Shown: positions 17,955 through 59,585 of the stretch, piece after piece
Numbering within the stretch: the stretch's first letter is position 1
Layout: each line of letters opens with the position of its first letter
Assembly (NCBI GenBank): GCA_003024175.1
Contig: MDYQ01000094.1
Coordinates: 62,001-126,000 of the forward strand
Reading direction: 5' to 3'
From: Planoprotostelium fungivorum
Lineage: Eukaryota > Evosea > Variosea > Cavosteliida > Cavosteliaceae
DNA: 64,000 nucleotides
Translations under genes and position numbers: made by a program
The notes under the pieces: generated by a model
The model's database searches: none
The model's input: the letters and a program-made list of their open reading frames with translations, nothing else
What the model was told of the DNA's origin: nothing

Positions 17955-20900
17955 ATGCGTGGACATTTTTTCATCTGGGGCTGGTGTGGGGTGCTGCTCT
18001 TGATTCACGTATCGGCCGTTCCATACGATGACCTGCAGTCTATGAAGATGGCATTTGGATATTCCGGTGATGATTCGTTACGCGTCTGTGTTTGCATTTT
18101 CTGATCGATTCGACAGCATCGGATACGTCCTTTTGGTATGGACTCGACGTGCGTGATATCCATCACGACAATCATCTCTCGTGTTGATCTCTTCAGGTGT
18201 GTAATGCAACTTACATCGGAGTATCTTGCGATTCGAGTGGAGATGTGATCTCCATCATTCTCGAAGGCACCGATGGTAAACACGGAGGATATCTTCATCC
18301 CGCTGTGGGGAATCTGGTCAATCTGACACGCTTATCCATCACATCATTTTCCCTCAAAGGACAGATTCCATGGACATCCATCGTCCAACTGACTCAGCTG
18401 ACGTCACTCAACCTCGAAAATAATCGACTGACGAGTGCGTCATTCGAATCATACACGACGTCTAATCGGCATCTCAGGCATCATCCCCACCAGCACCGGG
18501 CTGACCGGGCTCAAGTACCTCTATCTGACGGGTGCAGACCATCTGGGAGCGACTCTGACACCTTTCTCCTCTCTCACCGGACTGATGGAGCTGAGGTGAC
18601 TTATGGAGATCGATGATGATGATGATGACGAGAGAAGATGTGGTGGATGCAATCTGACTGGAACTATGCCGATGACGCTCAATGGATTGACGGCTCTGAG
18701 AAGTCTCAATTTATCATCGTGAGTGATGGGATCACGATCGTTGTCATCATCGTCTCATGCGTCGCATCATCCTGGATCCGTCCAGCTCATCCTCCTCATG
18801 ATCACACGATCACCGTCATCATCACCGATCCATCATCAACCATCTGACGTGACGAACAGGAATCATCTCGTAGGTCTCTTACCCAACATCTGGGGCAGCT
18901 TTCCCTTGCACGACCTCGATCTACACAACAACAATTTTACCGGTGAAAAATCCAACTTCCACGAAAATTCGACTCAAACTTTTCCAGGGTCCATTCCAAC
19001 TTCTCTCAATTCAAATTTGCTGGATGGCTTGTTTTTCTTAGATCTATCACAAAACTTATTCACTTCTGTTCCTGGCAATTTCAACTTTCTCAATTGTAGT
19101 CTGAGAGGAAATCCTCTCCCGTGCTCGTCAGCCAATTTGACTTGTCGTACCGATGGAAATCTGTTGTGTCAGAATTCTCTGGTCAGAAAGACGTTGCAGA
19201 CCTTTTGGAAGAGCTTGGGAGGTGAAAGAAGGAACGTGTGATTGAGATTGACGTACGCAGGATCGAACGATATATGGAGCACTCCAAATGTGAGTGCTCA
19301 CGATCGTCCTTGTAATAGGAATAACCTCGTCCACACCATGATCTCATCACATCCCTCATTACTCCATCATCACATCACGATCACATCATCAGCAGCATCT
19401 CGATCGCCATCACATCATGATCACATCATCACATCGTCATCACATCATCACATCACCATCACATCATCACATCACGCTCTCTTCACCTCATCACCACATC
19501 GTCTCACACTCGTAGTACTGCGACACATCACGCTACCCCGGCATCCTCTGCAGTGACAACGACACCATCACAGGCATTCTCATCGATGGAGCCCTCCTTC
19601 CCAGCACATCAGGCTTCATCGACCCTGCCATCGGCAGCCTCACCAACCTCACTGTCTTATCTATGACTGGTTTGGAACTCTCTGGCGATATTCCGAGCAG
19701 TCTGGCCAACTTGACCTCTCTGAGGCATTTGGACTTGTCTCGTAACCAGCTGTACGGTCAGGTCATGGATCTGAACCTGCCGAATTTACAGTACGTCAAT
19801 CTGTCGCAGAATCGACTGAGCGGCGCGATTCCGACGATTCCATATGCGACTACGCTCGACTTGAGGTGAAGAGGAGTCTGCAATTTCGAAAGATGTCTTA
19901 AACGTGTGCAGTTATAACAATTTCACATCTCTCGGGGACAGCATCACAGATGCATTGAGAGTGTGTGACTTGTCACATAATCTCTTTCCTTGTCTACCTC
20001 GTGCGTACGAGGCAGGCGTCTGCGTTGTAGATTGTGTTCCCGCCTCGAAGACGGCTCTATCTACACTGCGAGGAATGTGGAGCAGTCTGAAGGGTGGGAG
20101 ATCCGATTGAAATTTCGCGTTTCTCATCGTAACAGGTCCCGGGCAACTGTGGACCAGTGATAACGTGAGGTGTCATTCTCATACAACACTTACGTACAGC
20201 AGTACTGTACGTATTATGGTGTCACCTGTGACGAACGAGGATATCCCAGTGAAATTTCCCTGGAGGGTAATGGAGATCTGCTGTTCAACGGTACGCTCCC
20301 AACGGATCTGGGACTCCTAGTCAACCTCACCACCCTCAGCATGTCCCAAATCTCCATCACCGGACAATTACCCGACAGTCTCGGACAATTGAAGGGTCTC
20401 AGGATCTTGAACTTGACCGGCACACAATTATCCGGACCCATACCTGCCGTCACCCTGCCGAATCTGGAGGTACTCGATCTGAACCAGTGAGCATCCACAT
20501 CATCACATCACATCAACATCAACATCAAATCACATCCACATCAACATCAACATCCACGGCATCTGACGAATCTCATCGTCATCTCAGCAATCTACTCACC
20601 GGACCCATCCCCTTCTCCATCGGCTCGTGGAGAAACTTGACCCATTTGGACCTTTCCCGCAACGCTCTGAACGGCTCCATACCTTCTTCCCTCAATCCTT
20701 CTTCCCTCCCCTCACTCGTCTCGATTCACTTGAACGATAATTTTTTCTCCTCCATCAGCGAAGGAGCGGCCGCCTTCCATTTCTCCATCTGTGACCTCAG
20801 CCACAATGAATTCCCTTGTTTTCCGAGATATGTCGTTGGAACCTGTCAGATCGATTACAGGTCCTGTGGTGATGACGTGAAGAGTGTCATCAGAGAATTG

Positions 20901-23120
20901 TACGGGGCAGAAGGTCGTCTGACTGCATCGGATGCGCAGGTGACGTTTGAAATTCGAAAGGTGGAGGTTGGCGGGAATTGACGTAGATCAGGCCATCTTG
21001 ACATCCATCACGAACACCACCCGCCAGACATCTGACGTGAGATACTTCTATGAATACTCCATCTACAACACTGTAGATTGACTCGCCATCAGTTACCCGC
21101 CCTTCTCTCTGCCCTCGCCGCCCTTGTCATTCGCACTCGCACGAATCAGACGGACTTTTTCATGTTCGGCGACGGCATCGAATTTTCCGCGAACAATTCA
21201 CGATCAGTGGACTTGTCCTCGAAAACATTCACCTTACCTCGCACGAATATTTCTGTGAGATTTCCAGCTTCTATCGGCCTGGACGTGGATGGTAAATCAT
21301 CTCTCTTGTTCATTCTTTTCTAACGTAAGAGAAGATATCGTGGTGACTCTGTCTTCTGTGTCTCACAGGAATACGACGACGTAAGTGATGATGATGAGAT
21401 GATGTCACGATGATCATCTGATCGTGACTCATGAACGATAGATATGGTCCGATCGTTGGCGTCAGCATTTTGGACCTGTACGGAAACGAGAGAGAGGTGA
21501 GCGGACTCTCCCTGCCCATCAATATTACCATGGGAACCGTCCCAGATCTTCCCAACGGAACCGGTGAGCTTACCCTCATTCGTGATATCTCACGTGATGT
21601 CTTCAGTTGCCGTGTGTCTATTTTGGGACGAGGGCAACAAGAATTGGTCCAGGGATGGATGTTCATCTTTCATCGATGTAGAGAAGAGAGTGATATGTAG
21701 TTGCCTCCATCTCACCAATTTCACCGTTGGAGCTGCAGCTCCATCTCTGACTCCGCCGGCGCCATCGTCTTCTTCGGGTACGAAGAGAGAAGTGGTCGTG
21801 GCAGTTTCTGTGGTTGTCGTCAGTCTGGTGATCATCATCATCGCCGTGGCTGCTTTCGTCATCATCAAGAGGAAAAAAGTGAACTCATCTCTATTTTCAT
21901 ATCTCTTCTGCCTCTTTAGTAACATCTCACAATTCACATCGCATCATCACATCATGGATCGATCACATCATCATTGACACATCAGATTGACGATCATCTC
22001 AGTCTTATGTCACCGATACATGTCTCACTACGATCGTGGAGGACGTACACAACGACATGTCTGGCAAGATCGAGTTCATCGAATCGATAGAGAAGAAGGA
22101 ACACATGGAGATATGGAAGGGCAGGCTCAGTGGTATGACAGATGTCGTCCTCAAGATGTGTAGAGAGCCTACAAGAGTCGGTTCTCTCAGAGACGAAGCA
22201 CTCCTCATGCAGGTGTGCCACCATCGATGCATCACCATCGTCATCTGTGTCGCTGACGATGAGTAGACTCTGCATCATCCCAACGTGATTCAATATCTCG
22301 GACATCATTTAGAACATTCAGGTGATCGCTCTCGATGATCTCGATCGGGCGTGATGCTGACACCTGCATAGAACCCCACTTTGTCATGGAATGGATGAGA
22401 GATGGCAACCTGCGAAACTATTTATCCGCACATCCTGACGGTCTGACCACCTCTGAAATCTTGTCGACGTGTGTCCATCACATCACGTATCACATCGATG
22501 ACGTTCAACAGCCTTCTACAAGTAACACAAGGTATGACTTACGTCGCAAAGAGTGGTCTCGTTCACAACAACTTGACTCTGGAACACGTGAGTCTTAGAC
22601 GTAAGATCGTAGATGCAAGATGTTGATGGAGATCAGGTGGTTCTATCTGCGACAGATGGAAAAGTTGTGGCGAAAATCTGTAGCTTCTCTCGATGCGTCG
22701 AAGAAGGTTCGAAGGTGAACCGAGAAAACAAGTTTAGACACGCGGTGAGGGTCCCATGAGGAGATGGACTGAGGGAAACAGGCACCAGAGGTGGTAGAGA
22801 ATGCAGTTGTCTGTCCGGCGGATGTGTGGTCGTTTGGAATCATGTTGCTCGACATCACCTCCGAAGAAGATGTGATCAGATCGCATGATTCGAGTGGATC
22901 TCATGTGTTCCAGATGTTGACCAATCTATACGAAGGATGTGTGAATCGAGATGCAGAGAAGAGACCAAGCTTCTCCCATATACACACGCGCCTGTTACAG
23001 AGGAGAGAAGAGGAAGAGCTTTCCATGCGTGGTCGATCGACCACGGGTTCTTTCCGTCTGGCACCCGTTTCAAAGGCCTTTGTCGAAGCGACGAGCGATA
23101 ATTACGATCAAGATGAATGA
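17955..23120 (+). CDS. Receptor: LRR ectodomain, GAIN/GPS motif, one TM helix, degenerate kinase domain
   Basis: The ATG at 17955 starts a signal peptide (MRGHFFIWGWCGVLLLIHVS). The ectodomain has three modules, each with an LRR N-cap (C..(5-7)G[VI].C), plant-type LRRs (L..L..L.L..N.L.G.IP) and a Cys-containing C-cap: 18120-19240, 19240-20110 and 20130-20980. Two C-caps share CDLSHN.FPC.PR. A GAIN-like stretch follows (about 21150-21570), with ISVRFPASIG, YGPIVGVSILDLYGNE and PINITMGTVPDLPNGTG. A full GPS motif spans 21607-21735: CLFWD, NWSRDGCS, VICSCLHLTNFTVG. A TM helix is at about 21795-21875 (VVVAVSVVVVSLVIIIIAVA). The kinase-like domain (about 22040-23000) keeps VVLKM, APEV and DVWSFG. 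The HRD site reads HNN and the DFG site reads SFS, so it is probably a pseudokinase. Autoproteolysis at HL/T and a scaffold signalling role are inferred from the families. Confidence 0.87.
19360..19500. repeat. CACATCATCACATCAC simple repeat in an LRR gene intron
   Basis: CACATCATC and CATCACATCATCAC units run through the intron between LRR module 1 and module 2. They are in the sense orientation of the host gene. Confidence 0.75.
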
Positions 23121-23216: not shown

Positions 23217-24279
23217 ATGATGAATGAAAGCGGTAAGAGGCCATACGAAGGTATGGATAATGCAGAGGAGTCTCCTTCACTCCAAGACGAGAGGTTGAGG
23301 AATGATTATGATGGGCCCACGGTGTTGGTACCTCCTGGCGAAGGTCTGTTTCGCATTCTGCAGCAGCCGGCTGATAAGCAGAGGAAATCATACAAGTATG
23401 TATCACATATATCTTCACCACCCTGAAGAACATCACAGGAACGAGAATCGATATCTGTTACCTAATCCGATGGTCATATGCCCGATTCAGACGATACCTC
23501 CATTCGTTAATGGAATCGTCGCGGTCAAACTCATCTACGAAAATCAACACGGTGAGGTCTATTCCACGTCTGTAGATGTGTTCTCTTGTAGGAGGTGGAA
23601 TTTGGGATGACCCATCGCAGTCCCAGACCCTCCCATACAACAGAACCTTCTTCATGGGAACCTCATTAGAGAGTTAGATGTCAACGAAAAGAGGGCGTGC
23701 TTCGTCTTAAAATGTCTAGGAACCAGCGATGGCCAGAGGTTCAAAGTGAGATCAGCTGATCGCATGGTATCGGACAGACACTGACCACCATCAGCTCAAC
23801 TTTAAAGTTTTATACACAAAAGTGGGGGATCAAGACAACATTCTATACGAAGAACAATTGGACTCACAACCATTTGTGGTCACATCGAACAAGAAGAAAC
23901 AGCCCATCAGTGAGACGACCATCACTCCATCACCTTCTCACCTGCTGCAGACAAGCCCATCATCCAGGATCTCAAGCCTGCCTTTGGCTCGAACGACACG
24001 GAAACAGAGGTGTGCGGCATCATGTCTCCTCCATCATGTTGACACGAGCAGGTTTGGATCAAAGGAAGCCAGTTCACAGACAAAGCGGGTATGACCGTCA
24101 AGTTTGGAGGATATGAAGCCCGTGTCATTGATGCCGAAGACAATCTCATCACATGTCTGGCACCATCTCGATTAGATCTGCAGCATGAGACGAAAGTGTC
24201 TGTAGAAGTATCCAACTACCATCCAAATGAGGGTGTCATCGCTGGAGACAAAAACTTGGAATTTGTCTATCTGGTGTGA
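23217..24279 (+). CDS. IPT/TIG-domain transcription factor, Rel/CSL-like
   Basis: The ATG at 23217 starts MMNESGKRPYEGMDN. The first half includes GEGLFRILQQPADKQRKSYK joined across an intron (donor GTATGT) to NENRYLLPNP. QRKSYKNENR resembles the QKSYGNEKRFFCPPP signature of the CSL DNA-binding region. A beta-rich domain follows: VAVKLIYENQ, KRACFVLKCLGTSDGQRF, LNFKVLYTKVGDQD and SQPFVVTSNKKKQP. The last exons encode a typical IPT/TIG Ig-like domain: KPIIQDLKPAFGS, VWIKGSQFTD, MTVKFGGYEARVID and NLITCLAPSR. The stop is at 24277-24279. At about 300 residues it is much shorter than animal CSL. The exact class (CSL, Rel or an amoebozoan TIG family) is not settled. It follows the LRR receptor gene by 96 bp on the same strand. 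Confidence 0.65.
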
Positions 24280-24379
24280 CATGATTGCATTGCACCATCC
24301 CCATCATCTTCCATGCAACGCATGACAAAGTCAAGAACGAGAGAGGATAAAGAAGCTCGAAATGTATTGATCGTGACGT

Positions 24380-25008
24380 TTAATTGAGATCCAAGGCGGG
24401 CTTACTGGCCAGAATGAGTCCCACAATGAGACCGTAGAGGGCAAGAGCTTCGGCAAAGATGAGGATGAGGATGGTGCCCACGAAGAGCTTGGGTTGCTGT
24501 GCGGTAGCTCGAACACCTGCGTCTCCAGCGACTCCGATTGCATATCCGGCCGATAGACCAGACAGACCGACACACAGACCGGAACCGAGGGCGGCGAAGG
24601 CCTTTCCGTAGTTGTAACGAACGGATTGGACTGTAGGATTAGCATTAGAAGATGTGATATGGATGTTTTTACATCGGTTTCAATCGGGGTGGGAACATGA
24701 TGGAGAGGAAGACTTACCGTTCGTGGCGATAATCACAGCAATAATAAGACCGTAGATACCAATGACACCAGCCATAACCACTGGAATGATAGAACGCATC
24801 ACCAACTCGGGCTTGAGAACTCCCATGGAGGAGATACCAGTACCTGCCTTAGCTGTTCCATAAGCGGCTCCTGCACCTGTTGCACGTGTGACCCTCTGAG
24901 AATAAAATGTGTTTATATCGACTCACATGCAAAAACGAGGGCGGCTGAACTGCCGGCGAAACCGAAGAAAGCCTCGAAAGGAAGAGTCTCGTCACCCTGT
25001 CTGGACAT
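24380..25008 (-). CDS. ATP6V0C: V-type proton ATPase 16-kDa proteolipid subunit c
   Basis: Subunit c forms the proton-carrying ring of the V-ATPase Vo sector in acidic organelles. There are three exons: 24927-25008, 24718-24876 and 24380-24630, with introns of 50 and 87 nt. They join cleanly as [23 protein letters not shown] and [15 protein letters not shown]. The family is clear from [68 protein letters not shown] and [19 protein letters not shown]. The glutamate in [10 protein letters not shown] is the essential proton-binding carboxylate. Length is about 163 residues with four TM helices, normal for the family. The start is [19 protein letters not shown]. It is convergent with the TIG gene, 100 bp apart. 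Confidence 0.97.
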
Positions 25009-38515: not shown

Positions 38516-39886
38516 ATGACAACCCACCATCACATTTTATTTCTCTTTTGCATCTGGCTGATCAGGGTCGAATCTCAGACGTTCACGTGCATTGCACTGG
38601 GGACAGAAGGTGGAGCGGTATCATCGACGGCAACTGCATTTCTGATTCAGACGACGGCTCTTCCTGATAATGGTTTCCTTCTTTTAGATTCAGGCACCGT
38701 GTTAGATGGTGATGCATTTTGGACTCCGGATTTTACTGATGAGGATGATATGTAGGATTGAACGCGGCCTTGAGGAGAGGATCTTTTGATTTCGATTTGT
38801 CTCAAGCAAATGATGATGATTATTCGAGAGCTGTCTTCATCTTACAGAATCACATCAAGGGTGAGCGCTCTTTGTTGCAATGCAAACAGTGATTCAAGTC
38901 CAAAGGGTACGCCATATCTCACTCTCACCTGGACCATTATGCAGGTTTCATCGCAGCCTCTCAAACAGATACGAGAGGCAAGATGATCTACGGCATTTCA
39001 TCTTCCATCGATGCCATCAAGACCCACGTGATGAATGGACCCATATGGGCCAATTTTGCAGACGAGGGTGAGACGTCCATCACCACGACATCTCTCAAGT
39101 ATAACAGGACCATCACCCATTGGTCAGTACAAATATTCCGTCATCGATGAGCGCTACGTTCAAGTCCCTTTTGGAAATCTCTCCATCGCGGCAGAGACTT
39201 TAGCTCATGGCACTCTGAACGGTCGGACTTTCAACTCATCTGCCTTCTTTGTGAGAGATGATGTCACACGACACATCACATTATTCTTCGGTGATGTCGG
39301 AGCCGACTCCATCCAATCGTCCACGAGGAATCGTGAAGTCTGTAAACGTGCAGCTCCTCTCATCCGGGAGGGATATCTAGACACCATCTTCATCGAGTGC
39401 TCATACACGGAGGAACAACCGACATCACAACTCTATGGACATCTCACTCCTTCTCTCTTGAAAGAAGAACTCTCCGTTCTCGCTTCTCTCACGCGTGATA
39501 AGAGCCGGCCACTGGCTGGCATCAACATCATCGTCATACACATCAAGCCGAAATACAATGAAGACGTGAGAGCTACCATAAAGAGGCAACTGGAAGAGAA
39601 CAATGAATTAGGAGTGCTGTATCATTTTCCAGAGCCAGGTGAGAAACCATGTTACATCGAACCTGGACAAGATCACATGATAGATCTGACTTCTATAGGA
39701 TCGAGATTCACCTTTGGAGGAAAGAAACTCGAGGTCCGAGACGTTCCATCTGCTTCCGTGAAGACATCATGGCCTATGACACCCCTCGAGAGTGCCGTTG
39801 TCGTCTTTTTCGGAGTCATCCTCTGGCTATCCTTCAAACGAGCGAACCAACATAAACCATCGACCGTTTATCGTATCCATCTGTAG
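38516..39886 (+). CDS. Class II cyclic-nucleotide phosphodiesterase, membrane-tethered
   Basis: Class II phosphodiesterases (yeast PDE1, Dictyostelium PdsA) are metallo-beta-lactamase-fold enzymes that hydrolyse cAMP/cGMP. A signal peptide (MTTHHHILFLFCIWLIRVES) is followed by TFTCIALGTEGG and GFLLLDSGTVLDG. A 46-nt intron ends in ATGTAG, then NAALRRGSFDFDLSQAN. The metal motif is YAISHSHLDHYAGF (HxHLDH). Further family blocks are ETLAHG, FNSSAFFVRDD, ITLFFGDVGADSI, LDTIFIECSYT, YGHLTPSLLKEEL and INIIVIHIKPK. Beyond the usual end there is a membrane-proximal segment and a TM helix, ESAVVVFFGVILWLSF, with a short KR-rich tail. The enzyme would therefore face outward or a lumen while tethered, unlike secreted PdsA. 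The stop is at 39884-39886. Confidence 0.93.
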
Positions 39887-45892: not shown

Positions 45893-48800
45893 ATGTCCGA
45901 CTCTGGACATAGCGATGACGATTCGGTCGAATCGGACGATAACAACTACAAGGAGGACGATTTTGTCGTCGCCGACGATATAGAAGAGGAACCCGAGGCT
46001 CCCACTGAAGGCGGAGGGGAAGAGAAAGAGAAGAAGAAGAAAAAGAAGAAGAGGAGGGAGCCTAGAGGTCTCGATGAAGATGATCTCACGTTGCTGATGG
46101 ATCATGGTTACAAAGTCAATCGAAGCGCAAGCGGGGGAGGCCGTCTGAAGAGATTGAAGAAGAATGTTGTAGACGAAGAAGACGATGTGGAAGACCTTGC
46201 CCCAGAGACATTCAGTAAAACTTTGAAGGAAAAATTATTCAGTTCCGTAGATGGTGACGGTGCGTAATGATTTTGCATTGGAGAAGGAAAATGGCCTCAT
46301 GCCAACCTCTTCTCCAGGAGATAACGTCATAGAGGAAGCCCCCGCGCCCATCGAGGAAGATGATAATCTCTCAGAAGAAGACAGTGATTTGGATGGAATG
46401 GGTGATTTCATCGAAGAGACCGATGCCTACGGAAATGTCATCGAGAGGGAGAGGAAGAAGAAGAACAGGAACAGGAACCGTTCCAACATCACATCAGTTC
46501 AAATGAGAGAGGCCAATGCCCTCTTTGGGGGTTACGAAGACTTTGCCAATCAGGATTACGAAGCGAGTTTCATCATCATCTCTCATGTTCCATCGATCCA
46601 TCGTATCTCTCACAATTCATCTTTCATCACGTCATTCCATCATCACATTGCTCGATAAAGATGAACAGAAATCATTTCGATATCTATTTTATTTGATTTT
46701 AATGTTTTGCAGTATGATGAAGATGGACAACCCAAGCCAGAGAAGGCTCCAAGCTTGACCGAACAATTCGAACCCGCCGTGTTAGCCGAGAGGTACATCA
46801 CTGCCGAAGACGATCAGATCAGAGCTTTAGACATACCAGAGAGACTGCAAGTGTGTAGACTCATCATCACATCATCCGTGATGCGATCCATGATGCATCA
46901 TCTGTTCTCCCCTCTCGAAACTTTCACTGATTCTCCTCCAGCGTCGTCTACTCGAGAGAGGAGAAGAAGATCAAGAGTCTGAAAAGTTTGGCTCGGAGCT
47001 CATGCGTGAATCTCACTGGATCTACAAACACTATTTCGCTCACATTCCTGAATACCGAGCCCCCGCCGACAAGGAAGTCATGAGCAAGATCTGCACAGTC
47101 CTCGACTACATGAGACGAGACCATTTAGAGGTGCCTTTCATCTGGCAGTACAAGAAGGACTATTTCACCTTGTCCGTCCATTCGAACGTCAGCTTCAAGA
47201 ACGACGACCTGTGGAACATCTACGATGGTGACGGAAAATGGCTCCACCTGCAGAAGGCGAAGGACAGATGTACCGTCAACTACAAAGATGAAAATCGATA
47301 CCAAGGAGACAGAGAGAAGTACCTGGAGGTGTTGAGAGATGCAGACACGGAGACGGACGTTCAAGATCTATTCGCCCACTGGTACATTCATTCTGAAGAC
47401 GATGCGACGCAGCCGACAAAGAGGGCAGTGAGGAGAGATATGTACAGGTACTGCAAGAAGACAGGTATCACGGGGTTTCTGAAGGTGGGAACACGCGTGG
47501 AGCATCCGTGGAGAATCCGTGGGACTGACTTACGTAGCATTACGGTATCACGGCGGCTCAATTTGGAACGAACGTGACGAGCAACGTGCCGATTTACGTC
47601 TCTCGCGACGAAGAGAAGGAGCCCGCGGATTACGCTTACGAATATTCGACTCCAGAGTTCAACAGCGTCGAGAAGATATTAGACGGTGAGGTTCATCTCA
47701 TGATCATCGTCTCATCTTCATGATGATGATCATCGTCTCATCATCATGATCATCGAGTGTTGACTTTCTCTCAGCTGCCCGATCCGCCGCCGCACAAGAG
47801 ATCGCGTGTGATCCCCACGTCAGACGAGGTGTCCGACAAGTCTACAACATCCAGGCAGTGGTGAGTCCCCCGACGTACCGTACGTCTCATCCCACCAGGT
47901 CTCCACTTTTCCCACCGAGAAGGGAAAACAGATCGATCCTTATCATCAGTACAGGAGGCTTATCCGCATCGATAAGAAGCCGGTAGCCCTCTTCTCGGAC
48001 AACACGGACTGGCTGTCACTTGTCAAGGTGACAGACAGAAAAGTGACATGTGACTGACAGGTGAAAGGCTGAGAAGGAAGGATTCCTCACCATCAAGATC
48101 GGCCTCTTGGATAACACGTACCGCCCGGACGAACTGGCGATGGACTACGATCCCAAGTGAGTAAAAATTCATCCAGTTTTCTCATCGTGACGTCATCACT
48201 CACCGGAAGAATAGATCTTCCGACGTCGATTTCGGAGGAATTCTGGCGGAATCGGAGAAATTGTACTTGTCTATGGGGACTTCAATCGTGAGTCAGTCGT
48301 GGAACGAAGAGAGGAGGAAGGTACTCAAAGAGGCTCTCTCCAAGCATCTCTTTCCTCTCTTTGAGAAGGAGCTGCGTCACTCCCTCTTCGAACAAGCGCA
48401 GCAGAAGGTATTGAACCACGTGACCGAAGAGTGAGTTCTTCATCATTCGTCATGACGCGATGATGATCGTGATGTCATCACACGATGATCATCATCACAT
48501 CATCTCATACACGATCATCACATCATCATCTCATCACACGATCATCACATCATCATCTCATCACACGATCATCACATCATCATCTCATACACGATCATCA
48601 CATCATCATCACTACCCCTTCTCACCTCCACAGCCTCACAAAGAAGCTCCTCCGTGGTCCATACGTCCCCCCCAGCACGAACGAGCAACAAGAACACGAC
48701 ATCACCGTCCTTGCCATCGCCGCAGGTATAGACAACGAGCCCACCTTCTGCGTTTTACTCGACGGCCACGGAAACGTATCGGCCACTCTGAAGCTCAGCT

Positions 48801-51800
48801 ACATCACCATGAGAGGTAACGACAGCCGCAAAGACAAGGAGAAATCAGATATCCACGCTTTCATCATCAACAACGAACCGATGGTCATCGCTATCGGGGC
48901 CGATCCAGAAGCCAAGGGGGTGTATGACATGCTGTGGGAGGTGAGAGATTTGAAGGAAATTTCGGAGAAACGGAAGAATGACGGGAGAATAGATGACGAA
49001 GGAGATCCACGAGCAGAGAGAATTACCCGAGATGATCCACGTGGCTTACGTTGATCCGGAGGTGCCCAGGATATTTCAAAATTCAAATCGCGCGCGAAGT
49101 GAATTCCCCGATTTCCCGCCCGTTTTGAGGAGGGCGATCTCGGTCGGTAGATATTTGCAAGATCCTCTCACTGAAATGGCTGCCCTCATGGCAAATGAAT
49201 CGCAAGAGGTGATATCTACAACGATGTAGATCGATGATGTCATACCCTTACGATCATCATCATCACGATCATCGTCATCATCATCACACGATCTTCATCA
49301 CGATGACTGATCTATTTTTAGATCCTCTATATGAAGCTCCACCCTCTACAAGGCATCGTCAACCGAGTCACCCTGAGAGAAACGTGTCAGCGATGTTACA
49401 TCAACGCCATCAATGATATCGGTGTAGACATCAATCGATGTGCATCCGTCAAATTCGCATCGGTCAATCTACAATTCGTCTGTGGTCTGGGCCCGAGAAA
49501 GGCGGTCGGGCTACTCAACGCAATCAACCGAAAGGGTGAGGTCACGTGATCACATCGTCTGGCTGATGAGGATAGGTGGAAGGTTGGCCTACAGAGATGA
49601 ATTAGAAAATATGCTGGGGAATTGTGTCTACACCAATTGTGTCGCTTTTCTGAAGGTAAGACATCTCACTCAAATCCACGCGACACATACGACATCACAC
49701 CCGTACGATACGACATCACGTGACCTCCCCCAGATCACCGAACGCTATGCCAACCGCAACGAAGACATCTTCCCTCTCGATGGAACCCGCATCCACCCGG
49801 ACGATTACGTCTTAGTCAAGAAGATGGCCCGCGACGCCCTCGAAACCGACGACGACAGTGATGGGGTCATCATCAGGCTGTGTCACCAACCGAAACAAAT
49901 GAACGGGATGGACTTGGAGAATTTCGCCTTGGAATTGGACAGGAAGAACAAGAGGAAGAAGAGGACCGTATTGTACTCGATACGAGACGAGATCAACCAC
50001 GGGTACAGGGACTCGAGGGATCCGTACCGTGACTACAGCCCCGAAGAATTGTACAACATGCTGAGCGCGACGGAATCACCCGATCAATTGAGGGTGGGGC
50101 AGCTCGTCACGGGAATCGTCATCGACGTGCGGGATCGGTGTGTGAAATTTCATCGAGATTTCGTTGACATCTCGCAGGATGATACGGTGTCGCCTGGACA
50201 ACAATTTGGTCGGAGCCATCATGCAGAACAACGTGAGCGACAGTGGAAGGCCCATCAGTGATCTGCCCATCAACGTCGGCGATGCGATGCAAGTTCGCAT
50301 CATCAACATCACATCGACGAAAGATCACATGTCCGGGCAGCCCAACACACAAATCGACCTCTCATCGAGATCATCGGTGTTGAACGACACCCACTACGAT
50401 GACGAGGTGCTCAATCAACTGAGACACAGAGACCCGTGAGTCATCTCGATGGATGACATCGTCGATGTCCATCACATCAAGAATCAAATCGTCGATGTGC
50501 ATCGATTGACTCCATCAGTTACATCAAGATCGAAGACTACCGCAACGAGGTCGTGGAGAAGCAGAAGAAGAAGAAGAAGCCAGTGCTGAAGAGACACATC
50601 GACCACCCTCAGTTCCAGAACGTCAATTCGATCGATTCAGAGAAATACCTCGCCGACAAGGACATCGGGGAGGTCGTCATCAGGCCTTCATCCAAGGGTT
50701 ACAATTACTTGACCATCACTCTCAAGTTTTACGATGATCTGTACTGGCACATCAGCGTGAGGGAGGAGAGTAAGAATGCGAACGATCAGCAGGGGCTGGG
50801 GAAGGTGCTGTGTGTGGGAGGGCAGAAGTTTGAGGCATTGGATGAAGTGCTGGTGCGTTACATCACGCCGATGATGGATTATGCCAACGGTGAGACATCG
50901 ATGATTTGATCTCATGCATCACACATCGATTCAGTCTCGTTCATCACATCATCATCATCTCATCATCATCACATCATGACATCATCATGACATCACATCA
51001 TCATGACATCATGACATCATGACATCATGACATCATCATCTCATCATCACATCGTCGTCGATTCACATCTAACAGATCTATTCAAATTCCGTCTCTTCAT
51101 GAAAGGAGAGAGGGATCAAATTGAGGATCGTCTCAGAAAAGACCGCGCGAAAAATCCCTCCCGAATTCCTTACTACATCTCCGTATCTACAACGCGCCGC
51201 GGAAAATTCATCCTCTCTTTCTTGGCTTCCCGCAGCACCTGCATCCACGAGTGGATCACGGTCAACGGAGAGGGTTACCTCTTTCGAGATCAAACGTTTA
51301 AGAAGCCAGAGAAGCTCATCGAATGGTTCAAGAAACACTTTCGAGATGCCGTGCCACAGAGAGCGAAGGAGCAGGTGCCGGAGCCACATCCCAAATCCGG
51401 CGGTTTTGGCGGGAACAGAAATTGGGACGGTTCGCAGAATGGGGAGAATTACAGCCCGTCGAGGGACGTGGGGTACTCGCCCGTGAGAGAGCAGAGCGCG
51501 GGAAATTACGGAAATTGGGGGAACTACAATCAGCCACCTGCAGCCGTCTACAATCAACCAACTCCTGCCGTCTACAACGCGCCACCGAATTACGGCGGCG
51601 GCAACAATTTCCCGCCCAATCCCAACTACCGCGGAAATTTCCGAGGAGATTCCGACCGAAGTTACGGAAATTACGACCAGCCGATGCCAGACTACAACCA
51701 GCCACCCCCGCAGACCAACTGGAACCAGCCTCGTCACAACGACTACCCCCCGCGCGGTGGCGGTGCCCCTCGCTACAACGACAGACATAACGACCGTGGT

Positions 51801-52088
51801 GGTTACCGTGACAACCAACCACCTAGCTACGGTGGAGACAGGGGCGGCGATAGAGGTAACTATGGAGACCGCGGCGGTGGCTATGGAGATCGAGGTAACT
51901 ACGGTGCACCGGCTGGAAACTCGTGGGAAGGTCAGGGACACAGTCAGGGAGGACCTAGAGGCAGCTACGGCGGCAACAGGGGAGGAGGTAGAGGAGGAGA
52001 CAGAGGAGGAGATAGAGGAGGAGACAGGAGGGGAGGAAATGGACAGCGAGAGTCGTGGACATCTGGAGGTTGGGGCTCTTGGGATTAA
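45893..52088 (+). CDS. SPT6: Transcription elongation factor and histone chaperone SPT6
   Basis: Spt6 travels with RNA polymerase II and reassembles nucleosomes. The ATG at 45893 starts a very acidic N-terminus (MSDSGHSDDDSVESDDNNYK) with a K/R run, as in all Spt6. Domains in order: a helical/HTH part (SHWIYKHYFAHIPEYRA, VPFIWQYKKDYF; about 47000-47180), a Tex-like core, a YqgF-like domain (VLAIAAGIDNEPTFCVLLD; about 48710), helix-hairpin-helix (FVCGLGPRKAVGLLNAIN; about 49475), an S1 domain (GQLVTGIVIDV, DNNLVGAIMQNNVSD; about 50100-50340) and tandem SH2 (VVIRPSSKGYNYLTITLKF at about 50670, WHISVREESKN, then the second SH2 near 51080-51350). The C-terminus has YNQP.PAVYN repeats and an RGG tail ending GGWGSWD. 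About twelve short introns, some with long CATCATC runs. The stop is at 52086-52088. Confidence 0.96.
48484..48612. repeat. 27-bp tandem repeat in an SPT6 intron
   Basis: Units of the form ATCATCACATCATCATCTCA plus TCACACG recur four to five times. This is an intron of SPT6 between the exon ending near 48430 and the exon starting near 48633. The repeats are in sense orientation. Confidence 0.88.
50936..51062. repeat. CATCATGACATCATC repeat in an SPT6 intron
   Basis: CATCATGA and CATCATCAT units run almost without interruption through the intron between the first and second SH2 domains. The sense strand reads CATCATC/CATGACATC. Confidence 0.85.
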
Positions 52089-57000: not shown

Positions 57001-57885
57001 CTCGTTTCATTCACACATCGATTCTGATGACATCATCAGACATATAACAACACAGCCTCCTTCTACTGGTCCTCTCCTTTCCAATGCGATTGTACCTCCA
57101 TGCTATCCGATCAGTACCTCAACGTCACTCTCAACGGAGACGCGAAATTTCTCAGAAAAATCAGTGATGACGTCACCATCGACGCCGCCCTCCACGCTGA
57201 TGACGTCATCACCCTCACCTATAATTTGGTCTGCGTCTACTCCAACGAGACCCTCTCGTCACAATTGTCGACACGCAACGTCAGCCTCTCCAGTCCACCC
57301 CCGACCACGGTGAGACACTCTCCCCTGTCGACATTGTTTCACACGGTGCAGGACGTAAGGGTGGGATTCAACAGCGACATCAACTCTTCACAGCTGGTCG
57401 AGTTGGTGTCCTCCGTCTTAGGCACGGAAGACGAAGCTGTTCGCGTCAAGTCGTGGCAGGTCTTATCTGCGAAACGCAGCGCTCATGTCATGAGCTCCAT
57501 CAGCTTCATGGACGGAAGGATGTCTAAAGATGCCGCCGCGGCCAAGTTCCGCTCGCTGGCTCGACAGCAGATGAATGGAGGAGAAGACAAGTTTGCCGAG
57601 GTCGCCGGCAGCATGGACGTCCCCACCATCATCATCACCTTCATCGATGACGATCTGACGTCTGCATCGACATCAGCAACATCATCATCTTCCATCAGCG
57701 ACACGTCTGAAGTTCAGCCGACTTTCGGACAGATCGATGAAGGCGGGAAACTGAAGAAAGGACAAGTGGCGGGAATTGTAATTGGGACTCTGGCGGGAGT
57801 TGGAGTTTTGGGAGCCGCCGCGGTGGTCATTGTCTTGAGAAAGAGGCAACAGAAAGCGAAGGCCGCCAGCGATTATGATATGTAA
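54076..57885 (+). CDS. Large type I surface protein with NYG repeats, unknown family
   Basis: The ATG at 54076 starts a signal peptide, MNSRLFILFILFVSASAQC. A Cys-containing N-terminal unit follows (MRYGRCDSLLFADDSCWRCG). Next is a repetitive beta-solenoid-like region in which NYG or similar recurs about every 20 residues: GCLLYNYGTLIYGPNSYNN, STVYNYGNLVTVNGTFMGFG and STLQNYGQIHIEGV. Further exons are Asn/Ser/Thr-rich with many N-glycosylation sequons (YLEAAAASIYHGNSSVTVDQ, NNMTLASMTVLANASSV, FTNISPVQYFHGQG). A membrane-proximal globular part contains VRVGFNSDINSSQLVELVSS, KSWQVLSAKRSAHVMSSISF and PTIIITFIDDD. One TM helix, GIVIGTLAGVGVLGAAAVVIV, precedes a basic tail ending ASDYDM. About 15 exons. 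It is probably an adhesion or recognition receptor, by topology. Confidence 0.78.
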
Positions 57886-58192: not shown

Positions 58193-59585
58193 TCATGATG
58201 TGAGATCGCGATCATCATCACCTCCAAATATCAACACCGTCTGATCGTCCACGATGGATACACCGTGAGAGTATCTCTCTGGTGGACTGACGACACCCAT
58301 CGGTTTCTTCTTCTGCCAGGTGAGAGGAGAAGAAGTGATGTCTGCGTAGTGCAGATCGGTCCAATCGTGCTGTCTGCCGGGGCCAATTCCTCCCCACACG
58401 CAGAAATATTTTGTGGACACCCAAGCTTGTGATCCTGAAGAGAGGTGAACAACGTGATCATGTCGTGAGGTGAGGTGATGAGGTGATGAGGTGGAGGATG
58501 CGATGATGACCGGTATGATATGATCATGTGTTATGAACAACGAAGTGATGTGATGAGTGGTGTGATATGAGATGATGATGAGCCACGGCATCGTAATGAC
58601 ATTCGGTGGCGATGATGGATGATCACCTGATCTTGGCTCCGGGCGTGGACCTCTCTTCGGGATCTCTATCCACCTCGCCGCACCTGCTCATCGTGTCACC
58701 CTAAAACATCTGACACATCATCCGTTCATCACCTAAGTCATAGACCCAAACCTCATCCAGGGCCGTCCGGGTGTTGTGACCGTATCCACCATACATCTGA
58801 CACGTTCAACTTGAAAATTTCAAGTTGAACTCACGATGAGCTTTCCGTTGAATGTGATGGCGGAGTGACCCGATCTGACCTCAGGGACACTACCACCTTG
58901 TGAAGGCTGCCTCCACTCCATGTTTTCTATTTTCTTCAGATATTCTGCGATCTACAACGTTGTAGATGTCGTAGATTCGTCTCACCCAGTGATAGTATGG
59001 ACAATGCGTTCAACGGATTTTCGTTTGAATCTCCGTCATTACCGTAGATCACCAGCTCGTTCTTGATCAGGGTGCAGGTGTGTCCCGATCGGGCCATCTG
59101 ACCCACCCCTGTCTCGTTCGGCCGCGACCATTCTCTCTCATCTACCTCGCGATGAGAAGAACGTCCATCGATGATTATCTCACTGATGTCGAAGACATGT
59201 AGCTCATTGGTCTTGATGGCACCCACAGTTTCACCTCCGAAGAGATAGAGTTTATCATCGACAGCGGTGAGAGTGCACTTCCAGCGAGAAGATGGGATGG
59301 TTCCTTTCGGTTGGATCTTGGTGCATGTCCAATCGGTCTGTGAAGATTGAGTATGATGACATGTGATGAAGGATTCTGTGGTGATATGAACTCACGTGAG
59401 ATATAGAGTACATATCATTGTACGCCTCGTTACCTCTCTGTCCTCCGAAGATGTAGGTCACTCCTCCCGCACTGCACATCCTACATCATATCAATCATCA
59501 CAGTCCAACACCTTCAGCATGTTCACCCGAACTGTGACCTACCAGAAGGTACCTCTCCCTTCAACGTCACCTTCTTGAAGCTCAT
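58193..59585 (-). CDS. Kelch-repeat protein
   Basis: Kelch repeats fold into a beta-propeller used for protein binding. The ATG at 59583-59585 gives MSFKKVTLKGEVPSGRSQFG. An intron follows (donor GTGAAC) to MCSAGGVTYIFGGQRGNEAY. Further blades show the GG and W/Y pattern: RWKCTLTAVDDKLYLFGGET, NELHVFDIS, ARSGHTCTLIKNELVIYGND, GHSAITFNGKLIMYGGYGHN region (about 58870-58780), WVSTKYFCVWGGIGPG and RYSHGVSIVDDQTVLIFGGD. It ends DDDRDLTS with the stop at 58193-58195. About six blades and 310 residues; no BTB or F-box domain is attached. Introns of about 45-100 nt separate most blades. Confidence 0.85.

Follow-up and report, generated by a model that had tools for sequence, protein, structure and literature searches.

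A gene on the forward strand of the window (the whole 64-kb stretch of DNA that was analysed) appears to encode a one-pass receptor that joins an LRR sensor, a probable self-cutting module of a type familiar from adhesion receptors of animals, and an inner kinase fold without catalytic residues. Each of these modules is already known. For a protein with the order LRR-GPS-TM-kinase, we found no description in the open-access literature searched, in which papers were judged mainly by their titles and the openings of their abstracts. On balance, we lean towards an LRR receptor pseudokinase that has one TM and a self-cleaving GAIN/GPS stalk, in which the pseudokinase would act as a scaffold or allosteric switch.

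Gene model and domain order

A single open frame spans all 24 exons and carries every domain, and the LRR, GPS and kinase families all score over their Pfam cut-offs in the same protein (Table 1). In our hand-spliced model the 23 introns (GT-AG, 37-226 nt) are frame-consistent throughout. Left unspliced, 22 of them would disrupt the frame or bring in a stop; only intron 18943-18987 would do neither. Splice sites were picked by eye, with frame and homology as criteria, and several have close alternatives. The preliminary description had placed the gene correctly, with the ATG at 17955 and the last base of the stop codon at 23120. Its domain order of signal peptide, LRRs, GPS, one TM and kinase fold was likewise recovered by Pfam and hydropathy on the spliced 1230-aa model.

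Table 1 Features of the receptor gene, in window positions.
Feature	Position	Strand	Basis or remark
Whole gene	17955..23120	+	24 exons, 1230 aa; hand-built model, introns all GT-AG and phase-consistent
Signal peptide, aa 1-21 (cleavage point inferred)	17955..18017	+	Hydropathy peak aa 5-23; next part starts at 18018
LRR block 1, N-cap (ends YIGVSC) and plant-type repeats	18018..19221	+	Pfam, block alignments
LRR block 2, tandem copy of blocks 1 and 3	19261..20093	+	Alignments 168 and 273 versus shuffle maxima 62 and 60
LRR block 3, LRRNT_2-like cap and C-cap cysteines	20136..20867	+	Pfam, block alignments
Candidate GAIN region including GPS, aa 685-886	20868..21728	+	aa 816-885 match ADGRG3; aa 791-886 weakly match ADGRG1
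GPS motif, aa 848-886	21612..21728	+	PF01825, 39.6 bits, cut-off 22.5
Predicted self-cleavage site, H880-L881^T882	21708..21716	+	Aligns with the HLT in chains of adhesion GPCRs
Single transmembrane helix, aa 914-932	21810..21866	+	Hydropathy 3.56; sole peak besides signal peptide
Intron joining TM exon to kinase exons	21879..22002	+	124 nt, GT-AG, phase 0
Kinase-fold domain, predicted pseudokinase, aa 960-1189	22072..22994	+	PF07714 8.8e-32; residues from alignments
HNN replacing HRD, aa 1075-1077	22564..22572	+	Alignment to sequences of kinase structures
SFS at DFG position, aa 1098-1100	22682..22690	+	EGFR alignment

The outer part is dominated by LRRs, detected by Pfam as LRR_8 (4.7e-28) and LRR_1 (1.1e-21), with LRRNT_2 slightly below its cut-off (19.0 versus 20.7 bits). 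When aligned pairwise, the three LRR blocks scored 168, 204 and 273; the maxima in 100 shuffles of each pair were 62, 63 and 60. By this measure the blocks are tandem copies. They have plant-type caps, an earlier reading of the repeats as plant-like is supported, and the architecture of signal peptide, capped LRRs, one TM and inner kinase fold matches that of plant LRR receptor kinases.

An intact GPS motif and a candidate GAIN region

The GPS motif that had been read from the sequence was confirmed by Pfam (PF01825, E-value 7.8e-10). Its HL^T triplet is intact, and its four cysteines and two tryptophans are kept, elements that it has in common with the adhesion GPCRs ADGRG1, ADGRG3 and ADGRF1. 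In six-frame translation, the GPS-core pattern occurred once in the 64-kb window and in none of 60 first-order Markov resamplings.

The coding sequence of the candidate GAIN region is split over six exons in differing frames. In PDB sequence searches, a stretch of ~70 residues up to the end of the GPS matches ADGRG3 (E 2.3e-5) and one of ~90 residues weakly matches ADGRG1 (E 0.005-0.02), such that ~30 pre-GPS residues align with ADGRG3 and ~55, weakly, with ADGRG1. We take our unbiased figures from three PDB searches: adhesion GPCR chains made up 14 of 16 matches at E up to 10 for the GPS-region query, and 18 of 19 and 17 of 21 in two further searches of this region. A profile search of GAIN-GPS gave 23 of 25 matches to adhesion GPCRs, but the strong E-values of this search do not count as independent evidence, because three adhesion-GPCR fragments are part of the profile itself. 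Other matches were taken as chance, namely MmpS5 (two PDB searches and the profile search), a TetR regulator (one PDB search), OX-2 (profile search) and, in the PDB search with 17 of 21, a designed protein together with three chains related to pancreatic lipase (E 0.0019, though no single stretch passed).

Extending the query by 75 pre-GPS residues raised the bit scores of ADGRG3 (7qu8, 22.3 to 27.6; 7d76, 15.4 to 20.2), ADGRG2 (7xke, 18.9 to 21.5) and ADGRG1 (9s9u, 13.2 to 18.8), and newly matched ADGRG1 5kvm at 20.1 bits. The same extension lowered the scores of ADGRF1 (7wu3, 26.6 to 21.6; 8hc0, 18.8 to 14.4), ADGRL3 (6vhh, 18.0 to 17.2) and BAI3 (4dlo, 14.7 to 14.0). Without the GPS, aa 685-835 (151 aa) gave 0 PDB matches, although residues 791-835, part of the supposed GAIN match, lie within it, and aa 685-845 (161 aa), upstream of the GPS, gave 0 Pfam families. 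A complete GAIN domain has two subdomains, and at ~200 aa the candidate region is also shorter than the ~320 residues given for GAIN (PMC13197933). The proposed GAIN domain upstream of the GPS is, in sum, partly supported: its C-terminal ~70 aa match ADGRG3, the match is weak past ~70, and the stretch before the GPS alone matches nothing.

The residues that would follow the cut (aa 882-888, TNFTVGA) do not match the tethered agonist consensus TxFAVLM (PMC12716839). Nor does the receptor have seven TMs that could act as receiver: no 7tm family is among the 20 families listed by its Pfam scan, and it has one TM peak only. A GPCR-type tethered agonist, which the preliminary description had mentioned as known from adhesion GPCRs and polycystins, is therefore unlikely.

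The same one-gene receptor might instead use a non-cleaving GAIN-like domain as a rigid, disulfide-bonded stalk and signal as an intact LRR receptor pseudokinase. Some GAIN domains are indeed uncleaved, as seen for the human B2 and B3 ones (PMC13197933), the upstream half of the GAIN region here is divergent or short, and the tail past the predicted cut is not an agonist sequence. However, HL^T is preserved together with every cysteine and tryptophan of the GPS, beyond the needs of a mere spacer, and we hold such a stalk to be rather unlikely.

TM and kinase exons read best as one gene

For the self-cleaving receptor pseudokinase that we favour, the TM and kinase exons have to belong together. 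Hydropathy exceeds 1.6 in two places only, aa 5-23 and aa 914-932, and the single TM previously claimed stands as the one peak besides the signal peptide. Between its exon and the kinase exons lie 124 nt with 8 CATCA/ATCAC words. Three other long introns of the gene have 10 in 141 nt, 33 in 226 nt and 11 in 101 nt, and three intergenic stretches have 6 in 376 nt, 1 in 100 nt and 1 in 99 nt. Since the 124-nt gap resembles the gene's other long introns, one gene is the best reading.

Two adjacent genes, that is, a short-tailed LRR-GPS-TM protein ending just past 21878 and a separate kinase-like gene from ~22057, seem improbable to us. The TM exon does read through to a stop whose last base is 21977, the kinase domain has an in-frame ATG directly ahead of it at 22057, and the genome is locally compact (the three intergenic stretches used measure 99-376 nt). 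Against this, a phase-0 GT-AG intron links the TM and kinase exons in frame, the stretch between them is intron-like and not intergenic-like in its CATCA/ATCAC words, and one TM with a kinase fold close behind is the usual receptor order.

The inner domain is very probably a pseudokinase

In the one-gene model, the inner domain has the kinase fold, and the PDB kinase matches listed (60 of 1566) are tyrosine kinases, a match list and not a phylogeny. The VAIK Lys, alphaC Glu, APE and DVWSFG are kept. By contrast, the Gly loop is lost, with three of three loop glycines substituted, and the loop Asn is replaced by His. The DFG Asp is absent; an alignment to Lck shifts the DFG position slightly, and Asp is absent there too. 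With loss of at least one of VAIK, HRD and DFG defining a pseudokinase, the change of HRD to HNN and the missing DFG Asp make this domain very probably a pseudokinase. The label 'kinase-like' used earlier thus holds for the fold, whereas the missing catalytic residues had gone unremarked. Lacking the Gly loop, HRD Asp, loop Asn and DFG Asp, the inner part is unlikely to signal via kinase activity of its own. An unusual catalytic mechanism that would let the receptor signal via its own phosphorylation is very improbable: two catalytic aspartates and the loop asparagine are lost together, and the glycine loop is gone. In favour of such activity are the retained VAIK Lys and alphaC Glu, and a few predicted pseudokinases do transfer phosphate; the function of pseudokinases is not predictable from sequence alone (PMC4718504).

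Comparison with known receptors

Adhesion GPCRs differ from this receptor, which has one TM instead of seven, an inner kinase fold, TNFTVGA in place of TxFAVLM and a shorter candidate GAIN. Polycystin-1 has many TMs and is not known to carry a kinase, and its family is marked by a PLAT domain and a polycystin TM region. We rejected membership of this family, as the Pfam scan's list of 20 families includes none of this kind and the receptor has a single TM. Polycystin-1 nevertheless resembles it in having GAIN outside the classical adhesion GPCRs (PMC13197933). A variant of Drosophila Cirl offers a precedent as a GAIN receptor with one TM; unlike the present protein, it is an isoform of a 7TM receptor with which it pairs, and the portion of the source describing it mentions no kinase domain (PMC13197933).

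With plant LRR receptor kinases and pseudokinases such as EFR and BIR2, the receptor has outer LRRs, one TM and an inner kinase fold in common. We know of no such plant protein with a GPS or GAIN. EFR, an active LRR receptor kinase, is still able to activate BAK1 when made kinase-dead, a precedent for an inner kinase fold that works without catalysis (PMC11259431), and BIR2 has been classed as 'No nt binding' (PMC4718504).

Protists provide further receptor kinases for comparison, among them nine Dictyostelium TKL kinases with a classic one-TM receptor architecture (PMC1420674) and the Phytophthora Oomycete Subfamily 4, with 16 transmembrane proteins bearing extracellular LRRs (PMC3019232). 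The term 'GPS' is absent from the main text of both kinome papers. The 7TM-RGS proteins of Naegleria also carry a GPS outside animals, in a receptor other than an adhesion GPCR; in contrast to our receptor, they have seven TMs and an RGS inside, and the sections concerned mention no kinase, and LRRs only in another protein (PMC9283941). Two sponge papers mention GPS-bearing GPCRs (PMC6208332, PMC8242945).

A possible mechanism and its implications

In the self-cleaving receptor pseudokinase, the three LRR blocks would, from their domain type, bind some ligand or surface. The GAIN-like domain would fold in the ER and, to judge from its intact motif and the known chemistry of GAIN domains, cleave itself at HL^T. 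An LRR fragment (aa ~22-881) would stay non-covalently bound to a TM-pseudokinase fragment (aa 882-1230). A ligand or pull could then shift or remove the outer fragment, so that the inner one clusters differently or changes its juxtamembrane geometry. By analogy with receptor pseudokinases, the inner domain, unable to phosphorylate in the usual way, may serve as a scaffold or allosteric partner of an active kinase, and no GPCR-style tethered agonist would be required. More tentatively, the protein might represent a non-GPCR receptor class, possible though somewhat doubtful, in which a self-cleaving GAIN stalk gates a pseudokinase: a pull or ligand on the plant-type LRR ectodomain would part the two non-covalent halves of the receptor, and the freed single-pass pseudokinase would activate a partner kinase.

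GAIN autoproteolysis has mostly been studied in seven-TM adhesion GPCRs, where it is difficult to tell the effect of the cut from that of exposing the agonist. In a naturally occurring one-pass receptor that keeps the triplet but has a dead kinase and lacks an agonist sequence, the effect of cleavage alone could be examined. The receptor also bears on the origin of GAIN. A 2025 survey dates the fusion of GAIN with 7TM to stem holozoans and considers GAIN itself older (PMC12716839). Among amoebozoan family-2 GPCRs, another survey reports no GAIN (PMC10445921). Should the host be an amoebozoan and the class an old one, GAIN may have served one-pass receptors first, before the 7TM fusion in holozoans.

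Relatives and window context

Compared with the window's 1988 stop-to-stop ORFs, the receptor protein matched 21 (E <= 0.01), all within its own gene. The GAIN-GPS piece matched 7 stretches in viral contigs and the GAIN-to-kinase piece 3 stretches in prokaryote genome contigs, with 0 relatives in either scan; this says little, because the sets scanned were viral contigs and prokaryote genomes. The 64-kb window contains a class-II cAMP phosphodiesterase, which would suit an amoebozoan or fungal host without being proof of either, and it yielded 0 tRNAs and 0 Rfam families.

Architecture of the receptor and its LRR ectodomain

The predicted single-pass receptor encoded at 17955-23120 (+) combines leucine-rich repeats (LRRs), an intact GPS motif and one transmembrane (TM) helix, in that order, with an inner kinase-fold domain that has lost catalytic residues. 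Its gene is readable as a single unit in which 23 GT-AG introns (length 37-226 nt, median 48) divide a 3693-nt coding sequence for 1230 aa into 24 exons. Splice sites were picked by hand on frame and homology, and close alternatives exist for some; the acceptor at 21334, for example, could lie a few bases upstream. Retention of 22 of the 23 introns would lose the frame or gain a stop. The exception, 18943-18987, would add 15 residues within an LRR with the frame kept, and could be an alternative-splice site.

Behind the signal peptide lie three blocks, each a cap followed by plant-type LRRs (Pfam LRR_8, 4.7e-28; LRR_1, 1.1e-21; LRRNT_2 slightly below cut-off). The caps terminate in YxG(V/I)xC (YIGVSC, YPGILC and YYGVTC). 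Aligned locally with one another, the blocks reach scores of 168, 204 and 273, where 100 shuffles per pair give maxima of 62, 63 and 60; we infer that the ectodomain expanded by tandem duplication. There are 26 N-glycosylation sequons upstream of the TM helix.

A GPS motif and the probable end of a GAIN domain

The GPS (aa 848-886, VCLFWDEGNKNWSRDGCSSFIDVEKRVICSCLHLTNFTV) scores 39.6 bits against a Pfam cut-off of 22.5. A 241-aa stretch drew 16 PDB sequences within an E-value limit of 10, of which 14 were adhesion GPCRs, led by ADGRG3 (6.2e-5, aa 816-885); the ADGRG1 alignment starts at aa 791 (E 0.021-0.022). The contribution of pre-GPS residues was gauged with a 123-aa query against a 48-aa GPS-only query. 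Scores rose for ADGRG3 (7qu8, 22.3 to 27.6 bits; 7d76, 15.4 to 20.2), ADGRG2 (7xke, 18.9 to 21.5) and ADGRG1 (9s9u, 13.2 to 18.8; 5kvm newly appearing at 20.1) and fell for ADGRF1 (7wu3, 26.6 to 21.6; 8hc0, 18.8 to 14.4), ADGRL3 (6vhh, 18.0 to 17.2) and BAI3 (4dlo, 14.7 to 14.0), so the residues before the GPS resemble, by alignment score, G-subfamily members. A profile search gave 23 adhesion GPCRs among 25 matches, ADGRG1 again from aa ~791, with E-values that are not independent since the profile includes three adhesion-GPCR fragments. With the GPS left out, a PDB search with aa 685-835 had no match, and a Pfam scan of aa 685-845 found no family. The sequence thus supports the final portion of GAIN subdomain B, and the remainder of the domain is a candidate.

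H880-L881-T882, which we take to be the self-cleavage triplet as in known GAIN domains, aligns to HLT in adhesion GPCR chains of the PDB. Of the tethered agonist consensus TxFAVLM quoted in a 2025 survey (PMC12716839), the tail, TNFTVGA, retains TxF and lacks LM. About 30 residues run up to the hydrophobic core of the sole TM helix (aa 914-932, hydropathy 3.56), and a basic KRKK stop-transfer comes after it. The receptor offers ~200 residues where GAIN domains span ~320 according to a 2026 review (PMC13197933). That the GAIN-like region is instead a stalk without cleavage is unlikely, though it deserves some weight.

One gene rather than two

If two adjacent genes stood here in place of one, the break would have to fall after the TM exon and ahead of the first kinase exon. 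We counted CATCA/ATCAC words on the coding strand of four long introns, three intergenic stretches (boundaries assumed) and exons. The 124 nt at issue hold 8 such words and 0 complementary ones; in the remaining three long introns there are 10 in 141 nt, 33 in 226 nt and 11 in 101 nt, in the intergenic stretches 6 in 376, 1 in 100 and 1 in 99, and in the receptor exons 28 in 3693 nt. Small as they are, these counts favour an intron, and we consider two genes distinctly improbable. Across the four long introns, the only ones counted, 62 words stand against 2 complementary ones; such richness could help gene prediction for this genome by marking introns in a strand-specific way.

A predicted pseudokinase inside the cell

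PF07714 covers aa 960-1189 of the single-gene product (profile positions 2-258 of 258, 8.8e-32). Residues were read off PDB alignments to EGFR (9p9u), a tyrosine kinase (7t6f) and Lck (3mpm). The VVLK lysine, the alphaC glutamate (RDEA), APE and DVWSFG are retained. IEKKEHMEIW stands opposite the Lck Gly loop LGAGQFGEVW, HNNLTLEH opposite EGFR HRDLAARN, and KICSFS opposite EGFR KITDFG; in the Lck alignment the gaps around DFG lie elsewhere, yet no Asp is placed there either. The Lck record itself has HRN. On a plain reading the domain is a pseudokinase; an active kinase working by unorthodox means is very hard to credit. Each of the best 60 of 1566 PDB matches is a tyrosine kinase or a reconstructed tyrosine-kinase ancestor, a hint of a TK/TKL type, although a match list is no phylogeny.

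Proposed mechanism and precedents

We propose that the GAIN-like region folds and self-cleaves, that the receptor would then stay as a non-covalent two-part molecule, that ligand or force would work on the LRR half, and that the pseudokinase may serve as scaffold or allosteric element. Published work describes the continued activation of BAK1 by EFR, an LRR receptor kinase, in a kinase-dead form (PMC11259431), a one-TM variant of Cirl (PMC13197933), GPS-bearing Naegleria 7TM-RGS proteins (PMC9283941), Phytophthora LRR receptor kinases (PMC3019232) and GAIN in other non-holozoan genes (PMC12716839, section 11). A search confined to open-access literature found, in the text it returned, no description of LRR and GPS combined with a pseudokinase.

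Other genes in the window

The IPT/TIG-domain gene also has sub-threshold TIG_SUH (0.012) and LAG1 DNA-binding (0.23) matches, and this putative gene possibly encodes a CSL-like transcription factor. The subunit c product is probably a V-ATPase proteolipid. The phosphodiesterase frame has a hydrophobic stretch close to its end, and the probable SPT6 product ends in a long Gly/Arg-rich tail.

Long introns of the receptor gene and other features in the window
Feature	Position	Strand	Evidence
Long intron	18719-18859	+	CATCA/ATCAC-rich; holds both complementary words
Long intron	19290-19515	+	CATCA/ATCAC-rich
Long intron	20487-20587	+	CATCA/ATCAC-rich
Long intron, TM exon to kinase exons	21879-22002	+	CATCA/ATCAC-rich
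IPT/TIG-domain gene, neighbour of receptor gene	23221-24280	+	IPT/TIG 4.9e-9
ATP-synthase subunit c domain	24380-24679	-	PF00137 1.2e-19
Class-II cAMP phosphodiesterase domain	39035-39883	+	PF02112 5.8e-31
Probable SPT6 gene	46894-52085	+	SPT6 helix-turn-helix 3.8e-17; SH2_2 1.6e-19
Reading frame with probable TM helix and short tail at end	57031-57882	+	No Pfam family reaches cut-off
Kelch-repeat fragment	58193-58684	-	Best Kelch model 1.3e-8; 34.9 bits, below cut-off of 50
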